From: a virus
Reading direction: 5' to 3' (one strand)
Length of the DNA stretch: 64,000 nucleotides
Virus record (IMG/VR): IMGVR_UViG_3300047553_000984
Location: 1 to 64,000 of that record
The notes under the pieces were generated by a model. The model was not told where the DNA came from. It was given only the letters and a program-made list of their open reading frames with translations, and did not search any database. Made by a program: the position numbers and the translations under genes. Below, piece after piece: positions 2,063 through 47,615 of the stretch; the stretch's first letter is position 1; every line of letters starts with the position of its first letter.

Positions 2063-2168
2063 AGCGTAACCTCAGTATCAGTTTATCATGTCTATTGTAC
2101 TCTGTCTTATGATAGATTGCATTAAGTTTTATCCAAATCAAGTCATTTTATTTATTCTTCAAAATAGG

Positions 2169-2196
2169 TTGCATCAAGTCAATGCCGTGCTATAAT
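2169..2196 (+). promoter_or_regulatory. Sigma70-type promoter
   Basis: TTGCAT (2169-2174), a 16-bp spacer and a consensus TATAAT (2191-2196) face the 2368 gene and diverge from the repressor gene at 1787-2062. Transcription would start near 2203, at or just before the short open frame at 2204. Confidence 0.55.
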
Positions 2197-2203
2197 ACAA
2201 AGC

Positions 2204-2293
2204 ATGGCAAGCAAAAACAAGCCTCACCGAGAATGGTTGAGACTGACCCTTATGGTCACGTTGATGCAACCCCATAAACCCCAAAAACGTTAA
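2204..2293 (+). other. Possible leader peptide / structured 5' leader
   Basis: ATG 2204 lies 8 bp after TATAAT and opens a 29-codon basic peptide (MASKNKPHREWLRL...). The transcript then contains a dyad (CCCG..TCAGCG and CGCTGA..CGGG, about 2297-2338) before the 2368 gene. With no room for a ribosome-binding site, translation would be leaderless. It could equally be an untranslated regulatory leader. Confidence 0.25.
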
Positions 2294-2367
2294 AACCCGC
2301 ATCAGCGCAAAAACTTTCGACGGTTTCGCTGACACGGGCATACCTGTACCTAGAAGGTTCATTACCT

Positions 2368-2706
2368 GTGAATATAACACAGTTTGATGTCGATTGCATC
2401 ATCCGCCGATTAAAGGATGATGCCCCGGACTTCTTAGAGGCGCTTTCGGATGCTGACCACTACTTGCGGGTAGCGCTAGACCTGTTATCGCGCCATGACC
2501 AAAATACAATTCGTGAATTGGTAGGCGCAAGCGATACGGTTTACGAAATTTTGGGTTTAGTTCAAGAATCTCTAGATGACGACGACGCGGATGACGATGA
2601 CGCGGACGTGGCTCTACAAGAAGCTTACGACATCATCGCTGGTGACGACATTGATCCGACTGACGAACAACAACTGGCAGATGAATTGATGCGGGGGTGG
2701 AAATAA
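2368..2706 (+). CDS. Acidic hypothetical protein
   Basis: A 112-residue, strongly acidic protein with an Asp-only stretch around residues 72-82 (DDDDADDDDAD). The N-terminal half is helical (DVDCIIRRLKDDAPDFLEALSDADHYLRVALDLLSRHD). Such charge can indicate a DNA mimic or an inhibitor of a DNA-binding protein, but nothing else supports that. It starts at GTG 2368, with GAAGG about 14 nt upstream. The stop TAATG overlaps the start of the next, frameshifted gene. Confidence 0.6.
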   Translation: MNITQFDVDCIIRRLKDDAPDFLEALSDADHYLRVALDLLSRHDQNTIRELVGASDTVYEILGLVQESLDDDDADDDDADVALQEAYDIIAGDDIDPTDEQQLADELMRGWK

Positions 2707-2937
2707 TGAGAACCTTTACCCATGACGGCATCACCTATCGGTTAGACCGCTCTCAGGCTCTCGTTTTTGAAGCCCGTAAGCAACTTCTTTACCAAGTTTG
2801 AAGCGCACCCACGGGGCGCGGAAACGGCGGCGCTAATTCTGACCTTAGAGCAATCTTTCACCGAATTCTTACGGTCTGAATCTGACCAACAAGTTATCAG
2901 CACGGTGGCTGCAATCGCAGCCAAAGAACTAGCGTAA
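2706..2937 (+). pseudogene. Frameshifted small gene
   Basis: ATG 2706 overlaps the previous stop and reads MRTFTHDGITYRLDRSQALVFE... to a TGA after 31 codons. In the +1 frame the sequence from the T5 run at 2763-2767 onward reads sensibly (SNFFTKFEAHPRGAETAALI... EQSFTEFLRSESDQ... AAIAAKELA) to TAA 2935-2937. The two parts make one ~76-residue protein with a single indel near the T5 run. Function unknown. Confidence 0.5.
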
Positions 2938-2947
2938 AACCCCTACG

Positions 2948-2971
2948 CCCCATAGCTTTCGGGCTATGGGG
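2948..2971 (+). terminator. Hairpin, probable terminator
   Basis: CCCCATAGC and GCTATGGGG form a perfect 9-bp stem with a 6-nt loop, 10 bp after the broken gene. There is no long T-run, so it may be a processing or weak termination site. Confidence 0.5.
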
Positions 2972-2998
2972 GGTACTTCATTTATCAGTGAGGAACCT

Positions 2999-3463
2999 AT
3001 GAAACGACTATACGCAACGCTAACCATCCGCCAACTCAAGGCAAAAATCTCTCACCTTAGCCGAACTGCCTTCAAAATCACCCGACGGTTTTTCCGGTCG
3101 TTGGGTTTTGACAAGCGCGATTGGTCAAGGCTAACTAAGGCTCAAATCATCAAAGTTTTAGATTTTTACTATACCAATGTCATGCCAGTTCCTTACAACA
3201 AAGAAACCAGAAAACTGATTGAGTTAGGTTTCGAGCCTAACCCAGAATGCCTTAGATTTCCTGAATCTGAGGAAATTATGATGACCGTTTATGGGTGGGA
3301 TGTAACCATTAGCGGCGGCGATTTATGCCTCTTTAAGGGGGGGCTATGGGTTGTTTTCGAGCCGGATGGCGGGTGCGATTATGATGCCTTGATAGCTGAG
3401 ATAAAGAAAGTTTTCAAGGAAATGACGAAAGGCTTTAAACCCATCCAATTATCGTTATTTTAG
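2999..3463 (+). CDS. Hypothetical protein
   Basis: A 154-residue protein of no recognised family. The N-terminal part is basic and helical (TIRQLKAKISHLSRTAFKITRRFFRSLGF), with a sequence like a SAP/LEM motif (WSRLTKAQIIKVLDFYY). The C-terminal part is a compact mixed domain (YGWDVTISGGDLCLFKGGLWVVFEP). The ATG at 2999 is chosen because GAGG lies 7 nt upstream; the longer frame to 2966 lacks a ribosome-binding site. It is followed 10 bp later by the 3474 gene, probably one operon. Confidence 0.55.
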   Translation: MKRLYATLTIRQLKAKISHLSRTAFKITRRFFRSLGFDKRDWSRLTKAQIIKVLDFYYTNVMPVPYNKETRKLIELGFEPNPECLRFPESEEIMMTVYGWDVTISGGDLCLFKGGLWVVFEPDGGCDYDALIAEIKKVFKEMTKGFKPIQLSLF

Positions 3464-3473
3464 GAGCAAAACA

Positions 3474-3674
3474 ATGAATACATTTGATAGCGATAAAGCA
3501 TTTGCCGTTTATACTTCTTTAGTTAAGGCTTATTACGCACATTCTCTAAATCACAAGCTACCTCTAAAGCCTGATTGCTACAAAGACTTTGCTAAAGAAG
3601 CTATTCATGCAGCGATGGTCTTTGAAGCAACTTGTAACGACACTTTTCAAGAAATGTATGGGGTGAAAAAATGA
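3474..3674 (+). CDS. Small hypothetical protein
   Basis: A 66-residue all-helical protein with a good ribosome-binding site (AGGAG, 7 nt before ATG 3474). Its stop overlaps the ATG of the replication-type protein at 3671 (ATGA), so the two are translationally coupled and may work together. No family recognised. Confidence 0.55.
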   Translation: MNTFDSDKAFAVYTSLVKAYYAHSLNHKLPLKPDCYKDFAKEAIHAAMVFEATCNDTFQEMYGVKK

Positions 3675-4237
3675 ACGCTGAATTTGGCGATATGGTCTAC
3701 GAACTCAAGGAAACCTTAGAGCGATATCGATCAGCCGGGTTGTTAATTCATCACTCTAACAAGGACAAAGAACAAACCGGCTTAGGCTGCGTTCGGGGCA
3801 ATACTTCGATCGTTGGGGCCGTTTGGGGTGCTTGGCAACTGGACTATCAAAAAACATCCAACCAGAAAGAAAAAGCCACTTACAACCCTAGCGATCCAAA
3901 AAGATCCTTAACGGTTAGCGCCCGCGATGTACAGGGGCAAGCATTAGACTTGGAACTTGACCTCGAACAAAACAGCTTTAAGCGACTGGAATCGGAGGGC
4001 GATCGCGAAACCAAGTCTCAAGCAGATCAAGTTCTTGATTTACTGCATAAGCACCCCTATGGCCTAAACGGAAAAGCGATCGCCACGATGACTGGGATTA
4101 AATCGGTTTATGGGGTTCTCAGTCGGTTACTTAACCGTCGGTTAATCAGCGGGTTTTCGGCGCCAGATGATCGCCGCCGAATGGTCTACAAAATCAGCGG
4201 GGGCACTCCCCCCCCCCTCTGTGTGCAGCAATTTTGA
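3671..4237 (+). CDS. C-terminal remnant of RepA/AAA_25-type ATPase
   Basis: Residues about 20-60 (LLIHHSNKDK..., CVRGNTSIVGAVWGAW) match the late motifs of RecA-fold plasmid/phage replication ATPases, where HHxxK is followed by GxS/TxI. The Walker A and B parts that should lie upstream are missing, so this is a truncated relic or a re-used C-terminal module. A winged-helix-like segment follows (residues ~120-180). The frame ends shortly after a run of ten Cs (4208-4217). A one-base shift there joins it in frame to the segment ending at 4739. It begins by ATGA overlap with the 3474 gene. Confidence 0.55.
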   Translation: MNAEFGDMVYELKETLERYRSAGLLIHHSNKDKEQTGLGCVRGNTSIVGAVWGAWQLDYQKTSNQKEKATYNPSDPKRSLTVSARDVQGQALDLELDLEQNSFKRLESEGDRETKSQADQVLDLLHKHPYGLNGKAIATMTGIKSVYGVLSRLLNRRLISGFSAPDDRRRMVYKISGGTPPPLCVQQF

Positions 4238-4967: not shown

Positions 4968-5249
4968 TTACTCTATATTGAATTGAGCCGCAGTTACCTT
5001 AAAAGCGCCTTTGCCTGATTGCCCACTTAAATATAGCCATTTACGCTTATTTGGGAAATCATAAGTCCACCGGGCGGATGAATAAGTTGGTTCATCTAAT
5101 TCAATTTCTACATCATCTCCGTAATTGTCTTTTAAAAATTCTTTAGCTAATTTTAAAAAAACATCTTTGTCAAGATGTCCTTTACAAAAGATAAATTGTT
5201 CGCCATCGTCATTAAGAATTTCGCTAATGTCTGTTATTTTCGCGTTCAT
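4968..5249 (-). CDS. Hypothetical protein
   Basis: A ~93-residue acidic protein with an alternating helix/strand pattern (FIFCKGHLDKDVFLKLAKEFLKDNYGDDVEIELDEP, KRKWLYLSGQSGKGAFKV). No family recognised. The start is uncertain: ATG 5249 was preferred over a frame reaching 5279, and neither has a clear ribosome-binding site. It is divergent from the 5378 tail gene and convergent with the 4167 frame. Confidence 0.5.
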   Translation of the reverse strand: MNAKITDISEILNDDGEQFIFCKGHLDKDVFLKLAKEFLKDNYGDDVEIELDEPTYSSARWTYDFPNKRKWLYLSGQSGKGAFKVTAAQFNIE

Positions 5250-5316
5250 AGCACGATTGTCGAATATGGAACACATCAAGAGGCATTTTCAATAATTGTA
5301 ATACTTCTTGAAAAAA

Positions 5317-5346
5317 TTGACAATCAATTAAATATTTTGTTATAAT
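5317..5346 (+). promoter_or_regulatory. Promoter of the tail-gene operon
   Basis: TTGACA (5317-5322), an 18-bp spacer and TATAAT (5341-5346) lie 31 bp before the start codon of the 5378 gene. Both hexamers are consensus. This is probably the promoter for the tightly packed + strand structural run to about 16 kb. Confidence 0.75.
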
Positions 5347-5377
5347 AAAAATTCATTGGTGCCGTAAACGTTAAGAC

Positions 5378-8300
5378 ATGAGCCTTAATTTTGTTCTTCC
5401 ACAGAATAGTCGCTGGATGCTCGGTGATTTAGATATCACCGAAATTGTTGTTGATTTTTCAGTGCGTCATCCCATTGCTGAAATCACAACTCCTTTGATC
5501 TGGAAAGGGACGCTTAATGTTGCTCAAAAAGAAGGGGAGCCATTTAAAGAAAGTTTAAGTGAGCTAGAAAATCCTTCGCGGTGGGAAAGATGCCAGCAGC
5601 CGCTAGAAGTTTATTTTGGTAATATTAAATTTTTAACTTTAGAAATTGACTCTTATTTTTATGACGAAGATACCGGGCGCGGTACGGCGGAGGTGACAGA
5701 TAAGCTGGGCTTGCTAGACTGGCGATCGCCCGCTGACGAAATAGAGGGGGTGAAAGTCGGAAAAGACAATGACTGGTGGGAAGTAGTGAAGCTTGCTTTG
5801 ATTCAAGCAGGAAAAAACCCAGAGTCAGGGGCGGAGTACCTAACAAAGGCGGATATTGCTTTTGAGTCAAGCTATACACCGGAGGGAAGTTACGCTGTAC
5901 CCTTGGTCAAGGTGAATGGGTCCTACATTAAATTTGCCCAAGCGGTAGCAGGCGCTCACGGCCATTGGTTATGGTGCGATCGCGACGGGAAAATCCGATT
6001 GGCCAAATATCCGCTTAATCCCACTAGCGCGATCGCCTCACTGTCTAGAAGTCGCGTAGCCAAATATGAAAGAGAAGGCAGTCCAGAGCGGCCCTACGAA
6101 CGAATTATTGTCACCGGGACAAAAGACGAAGTTGCAGACTGCGGAGATCGCGATGGTGGTGAGACAATTGAAACCTGGGGCTACATCGGCGAAAGCAATG
6201 TTGTGATTAGAAGAGAAACGATTAGTCCGGTTGACAGGAAGATAGATAAGGATGTTGTCACCAGAGTAGTCCAGCGAGCCCTCGGAGACATAATGCCCGA
6301 CAATAAAAAATATCAAGGTAGCACACGATTAATTACCGAATCTAACGAAACAGAAACATGGTATTACGATCGAGAAAATCGTTTATACAAAAGAACAATT
6401 ACCAGAAAAAAAGCACTCTGTTCAATGTTCCCTTCAAATTTTCCCGACGACTTCTCTCTTAAAGGATCTGAACAGGAAATCGAAGAATTTATTTTTAAAA
6501 GCAGGGGGATTAGAGCGGCTTTTGATTTCTCGTTATTAAATGGCAAGAAAAGTTCGGAAAACGATGCTGGTAGCAAGTGTCGAGAAAAAAAATTAAAAAT
6601 TGAAAATGATGACAATGTAATTAAGCAAAAGATTTTAACAAAATATTCTCAATTTCTTTTTGCCCAAGGCACTTCGACTCAGGGGGTAAGACAAATTACA
6701 CCTCTTATGATTAGAGAAGAAATCAACGAAACATGGAGCAAAAAAACGCCAGGTGGCGGAACCCGTGCTGCCGGTGCGTCAAGGAAAAAATTGGCTGAAT
6801 GTGATCGCTGGAAGTACAGGCGAACAGTCAAGCGTAGAGATACAATCCGAAAAGAATCTTCTTTTAATGTTTCGGAAAAACCAGAGTGGGAATATGGGGT
6901 CGTCCCCAACGAAGACCCCGAAGGCAGTACATTTACGATAGGAGAAGTTCCTGTAGAAGAGAAACCCAAGGAACCCATTGTCACCGTCAAACCTGGTGAC
7001 TTAGCGCTAATTGAAATCACCACGCAAGAAGATTCCAGACCCCCCGCACCAACATACCGCGAGGCGGAAACTCCTACTGGAACAGTAACATTTTGTGGTG
7101 AGGATGTTTTTGAGTTGCCCTACGATAGTTGCGCCGAAAAAACTCAAGAACAGAATGTAGACTGGTTGACCACTCAAGAAAATGCTCAGTTAATGGCGCA
7201 ATTAATTGGCAAAATTCAGTGGCACCGCCGCTATGCTCGAAGCGTTAGCCATCCCATTTATTATCCTTGGTTTTTAGAAGAATGGGAGCCTTTTGTTTCC
7301 GTAAATATCAAGGATGGCCATTACATTTGCGATGGTTTAGTGGTTTCTTGTGTTCGTTCTTCCGTGAACGAAGCTGAATTTGCCTGGACTGGCAATTATG
7401 TGGGCAAAAATGACAGGGAAATCAAAGACCCGGTATTTAGACAGATTCAATATCCAGCCGCCAAGTGCGGGAATTTTCAGATCATCCGAAACAATCCCGG
7501 CGGGTATTCCTTGACTTACGCGGGGAGCATACCGCCATTTCCTCTCCCTGGAGAGGCGATCGTGACTGGATTGCCTGCCGGTATGAATTTTTCTAACGGT
7601 GTAATTTCTGGTCATCCTGCAACGCCTGGAATTTATAGTGGAAGTATTCAACTTAAAAATATTTTTTATCCGATTGACATATTTTCTACTCCCGCTGTAA
7701 ACCCAAGAACTACTTATCAGTCAATTGGAACGAGTTACACTTTATCGGGAACCAACAATAACAACTTAAATCAAATTCCTGCTGGCTCGACCGTAACAGG
7801 ATTGCCAGAAGGAATTACTTACAATCCTTCAACCGGCAGGTTTGAAGGCAGTCCGATCACTACTGGCACTCATACGATTACAGCCAGCATTAACGGGCAA
7901 GACTACGATTTTGCCCTTGTTGCCACGGAAAATACGGGTACATATCAGCCAACGTCTTATTTAGTTGGCGCACCACAAAATGTATTTTTTGATCCTGTTA
8001 CCGGCACAATTTCTGGTGATGCTGGTTCATCAACTTCTTTTGTTGTCGCGACACAAAACAGCAATGGGACTATCACTTATTCAACCGTAGAGGCAGTGAA
8101 TGACGGAGCGGCATTCACTGCCTCTGCCGTAGTGTCAGGATTGCCACCCAACGTTATGTTTGATCCGATTACGCAAACTTTATCAGGACAAGTCTCCCCT
8201 GGCACCACTTACACTTTTACTGTCCAGCAACCTACCCCCACGGGAATTACTTCTGCCACTTATTCGATTGCCGCCGCTTCACCCCCTCCGCCACCCCCGC

Positions 8301-15361: not shown

Positions 15362-16063
15362 ATGAATATAAATATTATACATGATGCGGGCGGACGGCTA
15401 AGTTTGGCTCAAGGAATTTCGCCTTTTATTGACAGCAAGTATATTCTTAAAGGGATTAAGCCCACAAAAGAATTAATTGAACAGCAAAATTTATCAATTG
15501 AGTCAATCGCTTCTGATTACGCAGATAAGATAATAACCAGTCAATCACCTCCTTATTTTTTGTCGGGCATTTGCATAGGTGGTATGATTGCATTGGAAAT
15601 CGCAAGAATTTATTTAAATAATCAAATTGAGGTGTCAGGAATTGCTCTTTTTGATCCGCCTATGTTTTTTGTACAAACTGAAGAAGAAAAAAATATTGCA
15701 AAAGATTTATGGTTGAAAATAAAAAAACCGGCAGCTATTCAGCGAAGAATGCTTGAAGGAATGACACAAGAAGAAGCAGAGGAATCAACAAAAACAAGTG
15801 ACTTTTTCATCAATTCATCTTTAAGCTATGAACCAAAATATTTTGAGTTTGATCAGGAAGTGACTTTTTTCTACGCTCAAGATAATGCTTTATTGCCTCG
15901 TAACGCCAACAATGTCTTTCAATTTACTTCTTATCTAAACTGGCAGTCCAAAATCAAAAATTTTTGTTTAATTCCAGTTTTAGGCTATCACGACAATTTA
16001 TGCGATAACGTAAACATAAAATACTTGGCAAAAGCATTTATTGATCACTTTGGCTTAAAATAA
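15362..16063 (+). CDS. Thioesterase-like alpha/beta hydrolase
   Basis: A 233-residue protein like the stand-alone or terminal thioesterases of peptide and polyketide synthases. The opening INIIHDAGGRL resembles the usual 'F.pgGg' start. The nucleophile elbow is GICIGGMIALEIA (residues ~73-85), with Cys at the nucleophile position. LFDPP (~100) supplies the Asp region and GYHDNL (~215) the His. Cys in place of Ser is known in some members. It is the last gene of the tail operon, which is odd. It might act on a lipid or surface thioester of the host, or be a captured metabolic gene. Its stop overlaps the first tRNA-like gene on the other strand. Confidence 0.6.
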   Translation: MNINIIHDAGGRLSLAQGISPFIDSKYILKGIKPTKELIEQQNLSIESIASDYADKIITSQSPPYFLSGICIGGMIALEIARIYLNNQIEVSGIALFDPPMFFVQTEEEKNIAKDLWLKIKKPAAIQRRMLEGMTQEEAEESTKTSDFFINSSLSYEPKYFEFDQEVTFFYAQDNALLPRNANNVFQFTSYLNWQSKIKNFCLIPVLGYHDNLCDNVNIKYLAKAFIDHFGLK

Positions 16064-16137
16064 AGCGAACAGGAGTTGAACCTATACTACCGATTTTCTT
16101 GCGATATCGGTGCGCTACCCAATTACGCGATCGCTTT
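16062..16137 (-). tRNA. Atypical tRNA, 11-nt anticodon loop
   Basis: The reverse complement folds as a tRNA: 7-bp acceptor stem AAAGCGA/TCGCTTT, D arm with GGG in the loop, anticodon stem CCGAT/ATCGG, T arm with loop TTCAACT. The anticodon loop is 11 nt (ATCGCAAGAAA) instead of 7, so no anticodon can be assigned safely. The stem could extend by a mismatch and one pair to leave a 7-nt loop without the invariant T33. No CCA is encoded. It may be degenerate, or a tRNA with a specialised function. Confidence 0.6.
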
Positions 16138-28740: not shown

Positions 28741-29946
28741 ATGAACACTCAAACAAGAATTTCAGATCAGTTACAGCGCAACGCATGGGAATCATTCATT
28801 TCCAAGCCTTATTGTGGCAATGAGTGGAAATCGTTGGGAGAGGACTTTTCCTTAAGCAAGTGTGAAAAAGTAATAGATTTAGGTTATCTCACGGATCGCA
28901 TTGAAACCGCTAAATTTGACTTTAACAACTTAATCCCAGTTTTTGGCGTTGCAGGTAGTAAAGGAAGATTTACCCAGTGGTATCTTGTCATTGATACTCA
29001 CTACTACTATGTAGGTGGTAAAGAATCGGAATCTAAAATACAAAATTATGCTGAGGATCTTAAGTGGGTTTTTGCTAAACATTTATCACAACCGGAAGAT
29101 CAAGCCATGTCAGATACTCGATCCCTTCAATCGCTAGGAAAATCAGCACTAAAACAACAGGCGATCGATCTTGGCGTCTACACCAAAATTGGTGGCAAGG
29201 CTCCAACCAAGGAAATGTTGATTGAGATGATCCACAATCACTTGATCAGTAGCGGTAGTGATACCGCTACTGTCATTGATACCGGCGCAGTGGCAATCAC
29301 GGTCAACAAGGAATATTTTGTTAACACTGTTAATAATGTTGGCAGTGTTGATTTATTGATTGAAAAGTACAAGGGCACTGATAAATACAAAACCAGTTTC
29401 TTTAGCTACTTAGATCGGTTGTTCTTAGAAATTCAATTGGCATTAAATGCATCTTTACTAGAATCCCCGGCGATTAAGCCGGTTCTTATCGGCATTCGGA
29501 TCAAGAGTGCTGCAATTTATGCCTTATTTGCCGCGATCGCCTCCGAATCCACCACCGCGATCGCCTCCGAATCCACCACCGCGATCGCCTCCGAATCCAC
29601 CACCGCGATCGCCTCCGAATCCACCACCGCGATCGCCTCCGAACCCACCACCGCGATCGCCTCCGAACCCACCACCGCGATCGCCTCCGAACCCACCACC
29701 GCGATCGCCTCCGAACCCACCACCGCGATCGCCTATAAACGGACTACTTTTAATTTTGACATTAATGTCATCAAAGATGACATCAAAAAATTAAACAACG
29801 TTAAATCCCAGTGGCTTTTAAATAGCTATGGGATGCTTTGGGCCGTCGAACATCAATGCCTAGCGATAAGCATCATAAATGATGCGATCGTGAATTTCCG
29901 CCAGGGATTAACTGACACTGAACTTATGGAGTTGATCGGAGAGTAA
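28741..29946 (+). CDS. SAP-like protein with an octapeptide minisatellite
   Basis: About 401 residues. The N-terminal ~120 residues are a mixed domain, followed by a SAP/Rho-N-like helix pair ([26 protein letters not shown], ~130-168), which usually binds DNA. Residues ~265-330 are eight perfect copies of an eight-residue unit (AIASESTT four times, AIASEPTT four times) encoded by 24-bp HIP1 repeats. The promoter hexamer TATAAT ends two bases before ATG 28705, so the next in-frame ATG (28741) is proposed as start. First gene of the DNA-metabolism block. Confidence 0.65.
29533..29732 (+). repeat. 24-bp HIP1-containing tandem repeat, eight copies
   Basis: Eight perfect 24-bp units start at 29533, each opening with GCGATCGC, and a ninth GCGATCGC lies at 29725-29732. 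Units 1-4 differ from units 5-8 by a single T-to-C change (Ser to Pro). Being a multiple of three, copy-number change by slippage keeps the reading frame. Confidence 0.95.
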
Positions 29947-36466: not shown

Positions 36467-39400
36467 ATGAAGACTTATGTGCGATTCGTTTGGTGCAAAA
36501 GTAGAGGACATACACCCGAAACGTGGCACCAGTAAGGGATACGGGAGTCATATTGCACTAACAGAGTCAAATCTGGAATCGTAGACACGCACCCTTATAA
36601 ATGTGGTTTTGTTACCCAATGGTGGGTAATTACCTGGATTTCCTGACATTTCGTAATAAAAATTTACTATGTCAGAGGTAATCGGCAACACCCCCACCCG
36701 GAGACTCACTATCAATGGTGTGAAGCGGGGTGTAAAGGTGGTAACTCATAACCATAATGAGAATCCCATCAAGCCAACTAGCAATGGTCAGCCGTGAGGC
36801 GAATGCCCGACTTGAACCCTCTTAATCATTAAGTAGCGAAATTTGGTTGATACGCTGCGTTCAAAATGAACACGGGAATAGGTTGAGAGTTGGAAGTCTC
36901 ATCAACAAAAGGCAGGGAAGTCATACCATACCTGCTAAGAAATCCCAAAATTCCCAGGGGGATAGGGCAGCATCCTAAAGCTAGATACAACCCAAGACCA
37001 CGGAACGAAGTAAAGCCCATGTTGGCTCTTAAGAGAGGTCGATACTCTTAAGTAGTGAAATAAAGTGTAAGCGCAAGCCACATGGGGGAGAGATGCAGTA
37101 CAGAAGCCAATGACCAGCATAACAACTGGTATATGCTGACAGACTGCGCCTAGGTTGAAATGTAAAGTCACAAGTAGCAATATATATGTCTAAAGCACAA
37201 CAACAGTTGATGATGGAATGGAATGAAATTCCCTGGAAGAAAATTCAGCGGAAAATCTTCAAGTTGCAAAAGCGAATTTACAGAGCGGCTAGTAGGGGCA
37301 ATCATGTCTTAGCAAAAGGGCTTCAACGGATACTGTTGAAATCGTATTACGCGAAGTTACTCGCTGTCAGGCAGGTGACACAACTCAATCGAGGCAAGAA
37401 AACTGCCGGGATAGATGGGATTAAATCCCTAACACCCCAAGAAAGAATGGAGTTGACAAACAACCTGACATTAACCAAAAAGGCCAAAGCAGTCAGACGG
37501 GTATGGATTCCCAAACCCGAAAGAGACGAAAAACGACCTTTAGGGATCCCGACAGTAGAGGACAGAGCGCGTCAGGCATTGGTCGAAATGGCACTAGAAC
37601 CATATTGGGAAGCCAAATTTGAGGATACCAGCTATGGATTCAGGCCAGGAAGGTCAACACACGACGCCGTATCCAGAATCTTTCTGACAATAAAGCAGAA
37701 ACCAAATTATGTTCTGGATGCGGATATATCCAAATGCTTTGACAGAATAAACCACGCCTACTTACTGAAAAAGCTCCAATGCTCAAACCCAGTGAGAAAG
37801 CAAGTGAAAGCTTGGCTGAAAGCTGGGATTATGGACAATGGAGCCTTTGAAAAGCCTGTAGCGGGAACACCCCAAGGAGGGGTTATCTCCCCGTTATTGG
37901 CAAATATAGCTTTAGATGGAATGATACGAGAGGTTGAAGCAAAATTCCCAAAGATTCAAGGGAAAAACGCCCAAACTCCCATTAGAATCATTCGCTACGC
38001 CGACGACTTTGTGGTGCTACACCCAAAGATAGAGGTCATCTATAAAGCTAAAGAAGCAATCGAAGCTTGGCTTAACCCAGTCGGACTAGAACTAAAGCCG
38101 GAAAAAACCAGGATATGTCACACTCTGAATCATATAATGGTTCCAGAAAGTGAATTAACTGTACCACCAGGTTTTGATTTTCTAGGATTTAACATCCGAC
38201 AATACCCTGTTGGTAAACACCACAGTGGAAAAAACACAAATTCCGAATTACTCGGATTTAAAACTATCATAAAGCCAAACAAGAGAGCAATCAAAGCCCA
38301 CCATGCAGCCATAAAAGCAGTCATCAAAAACGAACGAACTGTCCCTCAATCCGGGTTAATTAAACATCTTAATCCGATCATCAGAGGGTGGGCGAACTAT
38401 TACTCTGGGGTAGCGTCCAAAAAGACGTTCTCCTCAGAAGACTACATAATGTGGTCAATGCTCAGAGCATGGGCAGTAAGTAGACGAGGCCGAAAAACCA
38501 AAGCCCACGCCATACGAAAATATTTTCGTATGGGAAGATATGGGAGTTGGACATTCGCCACGGCGGATGGTCTAACCCTATGGAAGCACCAGGATATCAA
38601 AATTAAACGACATACCCTGATTCAACCTGACAAATCACCATACGACGGAAATTGGGTCTATTGGAGTACCAGGCGAGGAAATGATATTGGAACCCCTACA
38701 AGAGTAGCAAAACTGCTTAAGAAGCAAAAGGGTAAATGCCCACATTGCGGACAATACTTCACTAGCAGCGACCTGCTAGAAGTAGACCACATCATCCCAC
38801 GTTCACAAGGTGGGAAAGATGAATATAAAAATCTGCAATTGCTTCACGCCCACTGTCACGACATCAAGTCAAGATATGACGGAAGCACCCAAGGACATCA
38901 GGAAGAAGAACAGCTACTCTGGTAGTCGTACTCATGTAAAGAGTCAATTTAGGTAGGAGCCTAGTGCCGTGAAAGTGGCACGCTGGGTTCTGAATGGGAG
39001 GTGGGGAGAGCGATTTCCCCATCGACCCCTAATAACATTAACCCCAGAAAAGTAGTCGTCGCCGATTTCGAGATGTTTGCGGTTACATTAGGCGAGACCG
39101 GACGTGGACGCAAGTGTATCCACGTTGCGTGTCCGGAAAATTTCACATTTTTAGAAATAGGAAAAACAAAAACGGGAAAACCCCGTTTAAATAAATCATC
39201 CAGCACCACGGGCTGGATTGCCCGGATTTCAACATCCGGGGCGTACATCCGAGGTGCCACTGGAAACGCTGATGTTTCCAGTGAGTTTATAGATTCGATC
39301 CACGTGCCGGTTCGTGGGCAGGGTGCCTTCGGCGCTGCCGGACGGACTGGTACATGGGACGATGTAATCGTCTCCACTGAATTGGATGAGTTTTGGCTTC

Positions 39401-44404: not shown

Positions 44405-45265
44405 ATGTACATTTTAGCACAAAATAATGGTCGTTACCATATATCGGGGCAAAATGTCCTGCAAAATACAAATATCTTAATAATTAACGATATTGCTAAA
44501 AACGATAGCGTTGAGGTGATCAAATTTGGGCTAACCAAAAAAGGTCAGCCGTGGATCGTCTACCGATCCGAAGGTAAGATCCGCAGCCAATTTTTGAAAA
44601 AATCTGATTATATTTTGTGCTGTCAGTTGATTCCCACAGAGGAACACAAGGTGTGGATACACTGGAAAGTGTTCGCCACAAAAAATGCAGACCAAATGAA
44701 AAAAAATAACAAGAATTACGCAACCAATATTTATATTTCCCAAGAGGATAAGGTTAGTATAAGTTGCAATTGTAAAAGTCATTACTTTGCCCCTATAGAC
44801 AAAAAGCAGTGTCGGCACACTGACATGGTTGCCGCCTTCAGTAACAATTTGGTAAATAAAATTCTTAAAACTCAAGCGGGAGAAGAGATCAAGCCCGATC
44901 CCGTGTTGGTAGCAAAAGAAATTTGGGAGTCAAGCTTGGCTCCGATCAAAGTAAGCGTCGGTCAAGCGGAGTACATCGCCAAACGAATTTCAGCATTACA
45001 GCACGATGACTTGAAAAACTTTGACCTAGGGGGACTGCAAATCATTGAAACACCCGCTGGAGTGTTTTTGGGTAAAAAGATTGTTCAGCCGCCAGTTCGC
45101 CGTCAGACTACCTCTAGCCAGGTGGCACCCCGTCAACCAGTTTCCGTCCCCGCTTCTACACCAATTCCTGAAAAAATAGCGGCAGCGCATCGCAGTATTC
45201 GTGCCGCCATCAAGCAAAAAATCGCAACCACAGCCACAACTACAGCAGGTGGACTGGAGACGTGA
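44405..45265 (+). CDS. SWIM-type zinc-finger protein
   Basis: 286 residues. Residues ~118-140 read SCNCKSHYFAPIDKKQCRHTDMV, the CxC...CxH pattern of SWIM zinc fingers, which mediate DNA or protein binding. The N-terminal ~110 residues are strand-rich and the C-terminus is a Pro/Thr/Ala-rich linker plus basic helix. The gene ends 6 bp before the CRISPR-like array and converges with the TnpB-like nuclease gene. A link between the two is possible but unproven. Confidence 0.6.
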   Translation: MYILAQNNGRYHISGQNVLQNTNILIINDIAKNDSVEVIKFGLTKKGQPWIVYRSEGKIRSQFLKKSDYILCCQLIPTEEHKVWIHWKVFATKNADQMKKNNKNYATNIYISQEDKVSISCNCKSHYFAPIDKKQCRHTDMVAAFSNNLVNKILKTQAGEEIKPDPVLVAKEIWESSLAPIKVSVGQAEYIAKRISALQHDDLKNFDLGGLQIIETPAGVFLGKKIVQPPVRRQTTSSQVAPRQPVSVPASTPIPEKIAAAHRSIRAAIKQKIATTATTTAGGLET

Positions 45266-45271
45266 TTTACG

Positions 45272-45641
45272 CTTGCAATTTCCCCTCAGAGATCGCGTCC
45301 TCATTGCTGCCGTGTAAACCAAAACGAGTACCTTGCAATTTCCCCTCAGAGATCGCGCTCTCATTGCTACCACCGGGACCAAGAGTTGCCCGCTCTTGCA
45401 ATTTCCCCTCAGAGATCGCGTCCTCATTGCTGCACACAGTAATCCAGGCACAATGGAGAGCTACGACTACTTGCAATTTCCCCTCAGAGATCGCGCCCTC
45501 ATTGCTGCGGCAATTTTCCGGGATGCTGCCATCGGTCAAAGAGACTTGCAATTTCCCCTCAGAGATCGCGACCTCATTGCTGCGCCCACCCTAGCTCAGG
45601 GTCTTGCAATTTCCCCTCAGAGATCGCGACCTCATTGCTGC
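45272..45641 (-). CRISPR. Six-repeat CRISPR-like array
   Basis: Six 39-bp repeats start at 45272, 45332, 45395, 45470, 45545 and 45603. The unit runs CTTGCAATTTCCCCT to CTCATTGCTGC and differs between copies mainly at positions 27-28 plus one change at 38. Five unrelated spacers are 21, 24, 36, 36 and 19 bp. Each repeat has GCAAT...ATTGC near its ends. On the minus strand the array directly follows the RuvC nuclease gene, whose stop codon lies inside the last-listed repeat. Spacer lengths are too variable for a standard array, so a non-CRISPR interspersed repeat remains possible. Confidence 0.55.
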
Positions 45642-47551
45642 CCATCCCCCCACAAGTCAAGCCCCAACTGGATTTGATCGTTGGTTTGCGCGGATCGCTT
45701 CTTTCGGGTCGCTTTCTTGATAGAATTATTGCAAGATATAGTCGAGGATGCTTGCCCGGTAAGGGGCGCGGATTCGGTGAGATATTGCGATTTTTCCGAA
45801 GTGGAAATTGAAGGGGAAATATTTCCCCTTGGTGCCGATTGCTCGGCTTCCTGCTTCGTTGCCGGGGACGGATCCCCATGCTCCACAGGCTTATCATCCC
45901 CGGCCCAAGCCGGGTAGCTTCCGAAGAAGTCTGCGCGATCGCGGATATTTTTTGCAGCGTTGGTATCCGCGTGGTCGATGTGCCCACATTTAAGGCACAA
46001 AAACTTGGTTCCTTTGCGGTTATCTTTTTCTTGGTGTCCGCAATTATTACAGGTCTGGCTAGTTCCAGCCGCCCTGACCTTTTTAAAAATTCTGCCTGCC
46101 ACTTCAGATTTTGACTTAAGAAAGCCAATGAATCGTCCCGGCGTATTGTTGATAATAAATTTTTTCGTCAGTCCTGATTTTTGCTTACGGCGATTTTTGG
46201 CATATTCGCCGTCGTTCCCCACCTTAGTTTTTGCTTTGCGGGACATATTATTAAGTTTCAAGTCTTCAACGGCGATCGCGCTGTACTTTCGCACAATTTG
46301 GGTAGAGTGGTAATGATCCAAAGTGCGGCGACGATTGGCGATGCGCTCGTGCAGCTTACCAATAATTTTTTTAGTCTTCTGCCAATTTTGTGACTTCAAT
46401 TTTTGCCGAGACATTTTTTTCTGGAGTCGCAGCAATCGTTTTTGCAGTCGGGTCACATCTTTAGGTGGCACCAAATCGCCATTGCTGGTAGCGTAAAAGC
46501 AACCGGCGTTAACGTCAATCCCAACTACCTGTTCTTGGCCGGGTTCGTGACGCTTAATTTTACGGGGTGGCTCAAAGAAGTCTCCTGTCAACTGCAAATA
46601 GTAGCTAGAAGCCTTTCGGACAATCTTTAAATTTTTGACATAGCGATTGCCCCAGCGCTTATTCAGCCCTTTGGCTTTGTAAGTTTCACCGGAGAAATAA
46701 ATTTTATCACCAGGCAAAACCTTGGCATTTGACCCTACCAAGACGCCATCTTTGGTGATAGCGGTATTCGTGTCAATCAAGGAGTCAATCGGATTTTTTC
46801 GACTTTTGTATTTAGGTCTGCCTTTTTCTCCGAATCGAGCCTTCCATGCTGCCAGCAAATTTTTGCCAACCAAATTATTGATAAACTTTGATGGAATTGA
46901 TTGTGAGTTGGACTTGGTAAAAAATGCTTTAATTGCATCCGGTACATATTCATCCTGAACAATTCGCTTCTGAGCAACGCTTTTGGTAATATCGTACTCA
47001 GAGGCGATCGGGCATGATTGGGTAAAAACCACATTTCTCCCGTCGCGCACCCAGCACCCCACGGAACATAGCCTAAATACTACGCCTTTCCGAGCCTGAG
47101 TTTCAATGACAAATTGACCCGGATAAAGTTTTTCTAATCCACTCCAAACCTTGTAATTCCCAAAATCTTCACAATGGGCAGTCCCAGATTTGATTTCCGG
47201 GTAATCATTCAGACTGACATTTACATAAATCGTGCGATCGCTGTACAAGGCATACTGCTTACCTCCCAATCGACTCACTCCCAGATTAGAGAAAGCCAAA
47301 TCGAAGCCAGGAACTTCTGGTAATACTTCGTACTTTGGTGCTTTCTCGTGGTCTGGTTGCGACAGATATGCCCCCGGAAACCCCGGAGTAGGGTAATAAC
47401 TTAGTGCCTTAAATTTGGACTGATATTCCAACCAGTCCAGCAGCTTTAAGGATCGGTTCCAAACATAGTTACAAACACCCATCCAGTCGTCAATTAATTG
47501 CTTTTGACGACTGGATAAAGATAGTTTGAACTCTACGATTTTTACCGACAC
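45632..47551 (-). CDS. TnpB/type V-U-like RuvC nuclease
   Basis: 639 residues, longer than a typical ~400-residue TnpB. The RuvC centre is complete: D346 (GIDVN), E429 (AVEDLK) and D529 (HADTNAAKNI). A zinc ribbon C501/C504/C519/C522 lies between the last two motifs. The ~330-residue N-terminal part is enlarged compared with IS605 TnpB, and a ~100-residue basic tail follows. Such proteins are RNA-guided DNA nucleases, either transposon TnpB (guide from the element's right end) or Cas12 of subtype V-U beside a small array. No TnpA is adjacent and the array is, which favours the second reading. A 15-bp palindrome lies just upstream. Confidence 0.85.
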   Translation of the reverse strand: MSVKIVEFKLSLSSRQKQLIDDWMGVCNYVWNRSLKLLDWLEYQSKFKALSYYPTPGFPGAYLSQPDHEKAPKYEVLPEVPGFDLAFSNLGVSRLGGKQYALYSDRTIYVNVSLNDYPEIKSGTAHCEDFGNYKVWSGLEKLYPGQFVIETQARKGVVFRLCSVGCWVRDGRNVVFTQSCPIASEYDITKSVAQKRIVQDEYVPDAIKAFFTKSNSQSIPSKFINNLVGKNLLAAWKARFGEKGRPKYKSRKNPIDSLIDTNTAITKDGVLVGSNAKVLPGDKIYFSGETYKAKGLNKRWGNRYVKNLKIVRKASSYYLQLTGDFFEPPRKIKRHEPGQEQVVGIDVNAGCFYATSNGDLVPPKDVTRLQKRLLRLQKKMSRQKLKSQNWQKTKKIIGKLHERIANRRRTLDHYHSTQIVRKYSAIAVEDLKLNNMSRKAKTKVGNDGEYAKNRRKQKSGLTKKFIINNTPGRFIGFLKSKSEVAGRIFKKVRAAGTSQTCNNCGHQEKDNRKGTKFLCLKCGHIDHADTNAAKNIRDRADFFGSYPAWAGDDKPVEHGDPSPATKQEAEQSAPRGNISPSISTSEKSQYLTESAPLTGQASSTISCNNSIKKATRKKRSAQTNDQIQLGLDLWGDGQQ

Positions 47552-47580
47552 CTTAATCTCCTGTTTCTATACATATTCAA

Positions 47581-47615
47581 GAAATATATAGAAAATCCAT
47601 TTTTCTATATATTTC
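47581..47615 (-). promoter_or_regulatory. 15-bp palindrome upstream of the RuvC nuclease
   Basis: GAAATATATAGAAAA and its exact complement are separated by 5 nt, 30 bp upstream of the nuclease start. It could be an operator in the nuclease promoter or the hairpin of a transposon left end. Confidence 0.7.

Follow-up and report, generated by a model that had tools for sequence, protein, structure and literature searches.

Is a short array of repeats, joined to the end of a TnpB-like nuclease gene in phage DNA, a minimal type V-U CRISPR locus, or are its repeats unrelated to CRISPR? An initial annotation raised this question for the first 64,000 nt (positions 1 to 64,000, hereafter the window) of the IMG/VR virus record IMGVR_UViG_3300047553_000984, which has a total length of 69,059 bases. 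The best reading of the locus is a new, deep-branching variant of the phage-borne type V-U2 systems, whose function we infer from comparison with related loci and from predicted RNA folds.

The window contains six 39-bp repeats (45272-45641), which are read on the minus strand and directly follow the nuclease gene. In minus-strand order, repeats 1 to 6 are located at 45603-45641, 45545-45583, 45470-45508, 45395-45433, 45332-45370 and 45272-45310 (the distal array end), and are separated by spacers of 19, 36, 36, 24 and 21 nt (45584-45602, 45509-45544, 45434-45469, 45371-45394 and 45311-45331), which are mutually unrelated. Five of the repeats differ only at position 13 (T, T, G, A and A on the minus strand), and the remaining one, repeat 5, carries two further changes. 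This confirms the six repeats and five unrelated spacers of irregular length that had been annotated. The proposal that the array ends exactly at the stop codon of the gene holds for their adjacency but not for the exact edge: the stop codon (45634-45632) lies inside repeat 1, and gene and array consequently overlap by 10 nt. Folded alone, the repeat shows no unusual stability (z 0.23), and a hairpin repeat is therefore not claimed. The repeat has six copies in the phage record, all at this locus. Apart from this record, the array was found only in an 86-kb record with a 100% match over 9.9 kb, which represents the same phage and is no independent case; the array is known from one phage.

The main rival named in the initial annotation was an interspersed repeat of non-CRISPR nature; the unit might likewise be a plus-strand coding repeat or a set of binding-site iterons. 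In agreement with such readings, the lengths of the 39-bp unit and of four spacers are divisible by three, a plus-strand ORF (45262-45594, 110 aa), which starts in a GTGA overlap with the upstream gene, contains five in-frame array repeats (CNFPSEI..SLL), and other interspersed repeats are present in the same phage. However, the sixth repeat is out of frame, and there is no multiple-of-three excess among the spacers of related loci, as only 99 of 358 fit, so that the concern about lengths fades. Furthermore, an exact-match search of 84,980 bacterial and archaeal genomes with the repeat core GCAATTTCCCCTCAGNGATCGCG found nothing, and the 16-nt conserved repeat end yielded isolated one-mismatch matches only, and never a multi-copy array, in 386 cyanobacterial genomes. 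From both searches it follows that the unit is not dispersed as a repeat across host genomes, at least among those searched. Related loci keep the gene-array layout with unrelated repeats, their spacers turn over and match phages, and the window unit pairs with the anti-repeat of a conserved scaffold, as described below. A non-CRISPR repeat is thus disfavored and appears extremely unlikely.

The gene preceding the array (45632-47551, minus strand; GTG start) encodes a C2c8-like (type V-U2) RuvC nuclease of 639 aa, the length originally annotated. Pfam, NCBIfam and PADLOC assign it to the TnpB/Cas12f superfamily. In the comparison against models of the V-U families that had been proposed, C2c8 was the best NCBIfam model (257 bits, below the cut-off of 350) and Cas12u2 the best PADLOC model (2.4e-85). 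Because its score is under the C2c8 annotation threshold, the nuclease is filed as a V-U2-like variant and not as a typical member; the cut-off is likewise missed by three array-bearing relatives (L177, L189 and L190) and exceeded by the proteins of cyanophage CL131 and Microcystis. Residues D346, E429 and D529 and the zinc-ribbon cysteines C501/C504/C519/C522, the former triad and the zinc ribbon having been noted initially, show no variation when the protein is aligned with array-bearing relatives, and the intact triad rules against a type V-K (Cas12k) nuclease with inactivated RuvC. The core of an AlphaFold model resembles TnpB, Cas12p and Cas12f; only this core was used because the overall confidence of the model is low (pLDDT 61). 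The C-terminal tail (residues about 545-639; 45635-45919, minus strand) is predicted to be disordered (pLDDT about 32) and ends in a QL(T/G)xLW motif conserved in the alignment.

In a maximum-likelihood tree of 33 proteins, the nuclease groups with all array-bearing C2c8 proteins (100/98 support) in a clade that also takes in three array-less cyanobacterial C2c8 proteins, with 19 array-less TnpBs falling outside. By its sequence the nuclease is therefore a member of the C2c8 clade and not a plain TnpB. It forms the first, deepest branch of this clade, its exact depth being unsure because the branch is long (1.36). The C2c8 proteins of Chroococcidiopsis, Chlorogloea and Gloeocapsa (L009, L010, L095 and L099) form one clade; their genes have no array within 4-6 kb, and the Chroococcidiopsis protein (L009) has lost both its zinc ribbon and the first aspartate of the RuvC site.

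Neither Cas1 nor a Y1 TnpA (PF01797) is encoded in either record of the phage, in agreement with the annotated lack of cas1 and tnpA nearby. The locus thus has the RuvC/zinc-ribbon nuclease of an IS200/IS605 TnpB element, and the Y1 transposase is absent from both records. Portal and terminase genes are located close to the nuclease and array, as expected from the initial description of a cassette beside phage head genes.

Alignment-based searches of viral contigs identified about 50 IMG/VR records in which a C2c8-like gene is immediately followed by an array read in the same direction; many of these records are copies of a few phages. This layout is also found in the published phage CL131 and on a Microcystis plasmid (p1). 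The original proposal of a minimal, TnpB-derived type V-U locus in phage DNA is hence supported and can be narrowed to type V-U2 (C2c8), with many phage-borne examples. The relatives contain at least seven repeat families besides that of the window, and the families are unalike except for their 3' ends (TTGCAAG, TTGGCAAG, TTGAAAG and ATTGAAAC). Families A and B share with the window locus a gene that terminates within repeat 1. Irregular spacers are likewise found in CL131 (26-45 nt), and the first spacer of L028 has 19 nt. The arrays of three relatives (L017, L025 and L030) have their leader-distal spacers in common but not those at the leader end. In two others (L021 and L022) the last three spacers are the same and the earlier ones are not; together these two arrays contain two spacers that are near-synonymous variants of one coding sequence. 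These patterns, together with the spacer targets described below, are evidence that the CRISPR arrays of the relatives function or did so until recently. One Microcystis phage (L014) carries two different C2c8 systems in tandem (2079-3968 and 4974-6659), with arrays of the Microcystis type (4066 on) and the GATTGCAAG type (6656 on).

A tracrRNA appears to lie within the 3' end of the nuclease coding sequence. The minus-strand RNA from 45930 to 45603 is predicted to fold far more stably than shuffled sequences (z -3.84), and in the in-cis MFE fold the pairing partner of repeat 1 is an ORF segment located 173-136 nt upstream of it. This putative anti-repeat (45777-45814, minus strand) would pair with repeat positions 8-39, with a predicted duplex energy of -32.1 kcal/mol for its own repeat and -25.4 kcal/mol for the next best, foreign repeat; taken alone, it is of moderate significance only (shuffle p 0.028). 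Directly 5' of it, and also within the ORF, a two-hairpin scaffold (45811-45853, minus strand; z -4.34) with covarying stems would form the 5' half of the putative tracrRNA. Scaffold and anti-repeat together lie 212-136 nt upstream of repeat 1, in the part of the mRNA that encodes the disordered tail. An earlier local pairing had placed the anti-repeat at -94 (z 2.4), but folding, cognate repeat swaps and the position of the scaffold favor -173 to -136.

The scaffold directly 5' of the anti-repeat is common to the window and families B, D and E/CL131, in the order CAGGAAG, hairpin 1, CACC, hairpin 2, and is predicted to fold alike in all of them (z -3.0 to -4.3). Between the window and family B, 7/7 counted stem pairs are kept, three of them changed on both sides, compared with 29-54% paired in slid controls; this covariation is modest by itself because it involves five sequences only. 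In hairpin 2, nearly every stem position differs between L021 and L028, with pairing kept. The two-hairpin motif has 14 matches in the 3.8 Mb scanned (both strands counted), all 14 at the gene 3' end of V-U2 phage loci and none in ordinary TnpB loci. Furthermore, repeats were swapped between loci of nine families (the window, W, and A-H), using the same region upstream of repeat 1. In six of them (W, A, C, D, E and G) the cognate repeat is the best partner of the gene end, with residuals of -8 to -24 kcal/mol (off-diagonal sd 2.5; 0/20,000 permutations as good). Families B, F and H showed no cognate preference in this region, where F and H have no anti-repeat and B a weak one. The initial annotation had suggested that nuclease mRNA and guide RNA are one transcript, as for TnpB reRNA; a link of this kind is indicated in an unforeseen form, a tracrRNA-like scaffold within the ORF end. 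No description of a tracrRNA inside a C2c8 coding sequence that covaries with the repeat, or of the present deep-branching C2c8 variant, was found in the literature searched, the coverage of which was incomplete.

Spacer targets were sought in phages, plasmids and viral contigs. The search for spacer matches to mobile DNA that had been proposed gave no convincing target for the window's own spacers: blastn of the locus against phages and plasmids returned no match, and the spacers gave one 19-nt match in these databases, which is at chance level. Exact searches of viral contigs with spacers 2 and 3 recovered only the same phage. A candidate target of spacer 4 was rejected: in six near-identical viral contigs, a gene agrees with it over the first 18 nt and fails to do so over the last 6 nt (18/24 overall, flank ATC), which we judge to be chance level because the viral contig collection is large.

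Targets were found for spacers of related loci. Two spacers of the Microcystis plasmid match phage L163 (31/36 each, flank GTT), and spacer 2 of L020 matches the 3' (guide-RNA) part of a family A phage c2c8 gene (35/36, flank GTC; 6453-6488 in L014), so that the 5' motif beside the relatives' protospacers in rival phages reads GTY. Spacers against the same phages, with GTT/GTC flanks, are also present on a genome contig of Microcystis that has cas6 and an array of similar repeat, which points to Microcystis as the host of these phages. Uptake of spacers by host Cas1-Cas2 fits these observations, which do not prove it. These matches suggest that phages may use V-U2 systems against each other. 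In Microcystis sp. LSC13-02 (L093, 1461-8377), a cas6-like gene and a c2c8 remnant preceded by another TnpB are found with two phage-type repeats, which are followed by a long array of host type whose spacers are directed against these phages, an arrangement suggesting that a phage array has fused with one of the host. For the window phage, a terminase comparison gave no useful host assignment.

The similarity between phage and host repeats in the Microcystis group raises the alternative that the array is a host-type decoy or mini-array exploiting host Cas proteins, with the neighboring nuclease incidental; such phage mini-arrays are known (PMC11656645). A host-repeat mimic of the window repeat was sought in the 386 cyanobacterial genomes and not found, the 16-nt repeat end forming no array there, and the repeat core is missing from all 84,980 genomes. 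Moreover, the repeats match the anti-repeat of their own nuclease gene and nuclease and array are linked in all families found, which makes this alternative very unlikely. Somewhat less improbable, and still unlikely, is a domesticated or homing-type TnpB with one omega RNA at the gene end, for which the array would be a passive by-product, e.g. of repeated duplication of the right end of the old element. The TnpB ancestry is clear, the scaffold occupies the omega RNA position, repeat 1 overlaps the gene end, and several window spacers are short and without known target. This alternative is at odds with the turnover of the relatives' spacers and the GTY flank shared by protospacers in other phages, with the anti-repeat changing in step with the repeat in six families, with the grouping of all array-bearing proteins in one clade, and with the absence of tnpA from both records of the window phage.

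The locus is probably a phage-borne single-effector V-U2 (C2c8) CRISPR system with an ORF-end tracrRNA and array-derived guides, and represents the deepest branch found here. Points against this reading are the missing target for its own spacers, the short length of three of the five spacers (19, 24 and 21 nt), the C2c8 score below cut-off, the moderate significance of the window anti-repeat taken alone, and the missing (F and H) or weak (B) anti-repeats of three families. In the proposed mechanism, the nuclease mRNA and the guide RNAs would be carried on one minus-strand transcript, the guides overlapping the 3' end of the mRNA. Processing would release the final ~220 nt of the ORF as a tracrRNA with the two-hairpin scaffold followed by the anti-repeat, a counterpart of the TnpB omega RNA. 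The array would yield crRNAs, each comprising a spacer and the 3' portion of the 39-nt repeat, that pair with this anti-repeat. The RuvC nuclease would then cut DNA matching the spacer, and the system would probably be directed against phages, plasmids or prophages with which the phage competes in a shared cyanobacterial host. As no cas1 was found, new spacers would presumably be supplied by host adaptation proteins.

Phage-borne V-U2 is already known from cyanophage vB_AphaS-CL131 (PMC6293099), which shares with the window a C2c8-clade nuclease beside a terminase gene, a same-orientation array directly downstream with irregular spacers and no other cas genes, and a scaffold-plus-anti-repeat region. 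It differs in its protein (about 33% identity), its unrelated repeat and its ORF, which stops before the scaffold region, whereas the scaffold of the window is coding. The CL131 effector ORF (L012) stops at 5093-5095, where those of L021 and L028 read on, and lacks the tail. Scaffold and anti-repeat remain downstream of this shortened ORF, which suggests that these elements are kept as RNA. The CL131 system was described as lacking a tracrRNA and as possibly regulatory (PMC6293099), and no demonstrated mechanism for type V-U2 was found in the accessible literature. Microcystis C2c8 loci (NIES-2481 p1 and IMG/VR relatives) likewise combine a C2c8 gene and array with an anti-repeat in the gene 3' end, but have longer, regular arrays (34-37-nt spacers) that begin about 100 nt past the gene, a host-like repeat and another scaffold sequence. 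TnpB with omega RNA (ISDra2, IS200/IS605) shares the RuvC core, the zinc ribbon, good fold matches and a guide scaffold that overlaps the gene 3' end; the window differs in lacking tnpA, in its array-derived guides and in a scaffold split into anti-repeat and repeat. Splitting of the guide RNA in TnpB-derived systems has been published before: TranC reportedly pairs a TnpB-derived nuclease with a guide RNA that is divided between an array and a tracrRNA-like part. The window nuclease matches LaTranC weakly in sequence and fold, and the TranC lineage is distinct.

The ORF-embedded putative tracrRNA and the repeat bearing the stop codon would constitute a plausible snapshot of the transition from transposon nuclease to CRISPR effector. 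More broadly, we tentatively propose, with somewhat less than even confidence, that phage C2c8 loci are living TnpB-CRISPR intermediates with a split omega RNA, spacers from host Cas1-Cas2 (as suggested by the GTY flank and the host-like repeats in the Microcystis group) and a role in inter-phage warfare, of which the window is the deepest branch. If so, the tracrRNA would still be coding, the crRNA array would begin in a stop codon, and the systems would also be aimed at the C2c8 systems of rival phages. With coordinates and covariation at hand for a candidate guide RNA, type V-U2, a subtype that has received little study, becomes testable in a single plasmid experiment.

The window contains several further elements. 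Within the phage DNA lies a group II intron (37186-39033) whose reverse transcriptase/maturase/HNH ORF is intact, with an Rfam intron domain at 38955-39033. An interspersed repeat of about 60-90 nt (GCGATCGCGCATA..GGATGCC..GCCGGGGTCGGAACCGGGCGATCG) occurs in six copies between phage genes (1242-1323, 36371-36460, 39563-39611, 39728-39817, 40286-40375 and 40672-40762) and looks like a small mobile or regulatory repeat. In addition, a tRNA gene is encoded on the minus strand (16061-16137), and a 24-bp tandem repeat (CCGCGATCGCCTCCGAATCCACCA) is present in about eight copies (29531-29746). This tandem repeat contains GCGATCGC, the cyanobacterial HIP1 octamer, of which the window has 49 sites.
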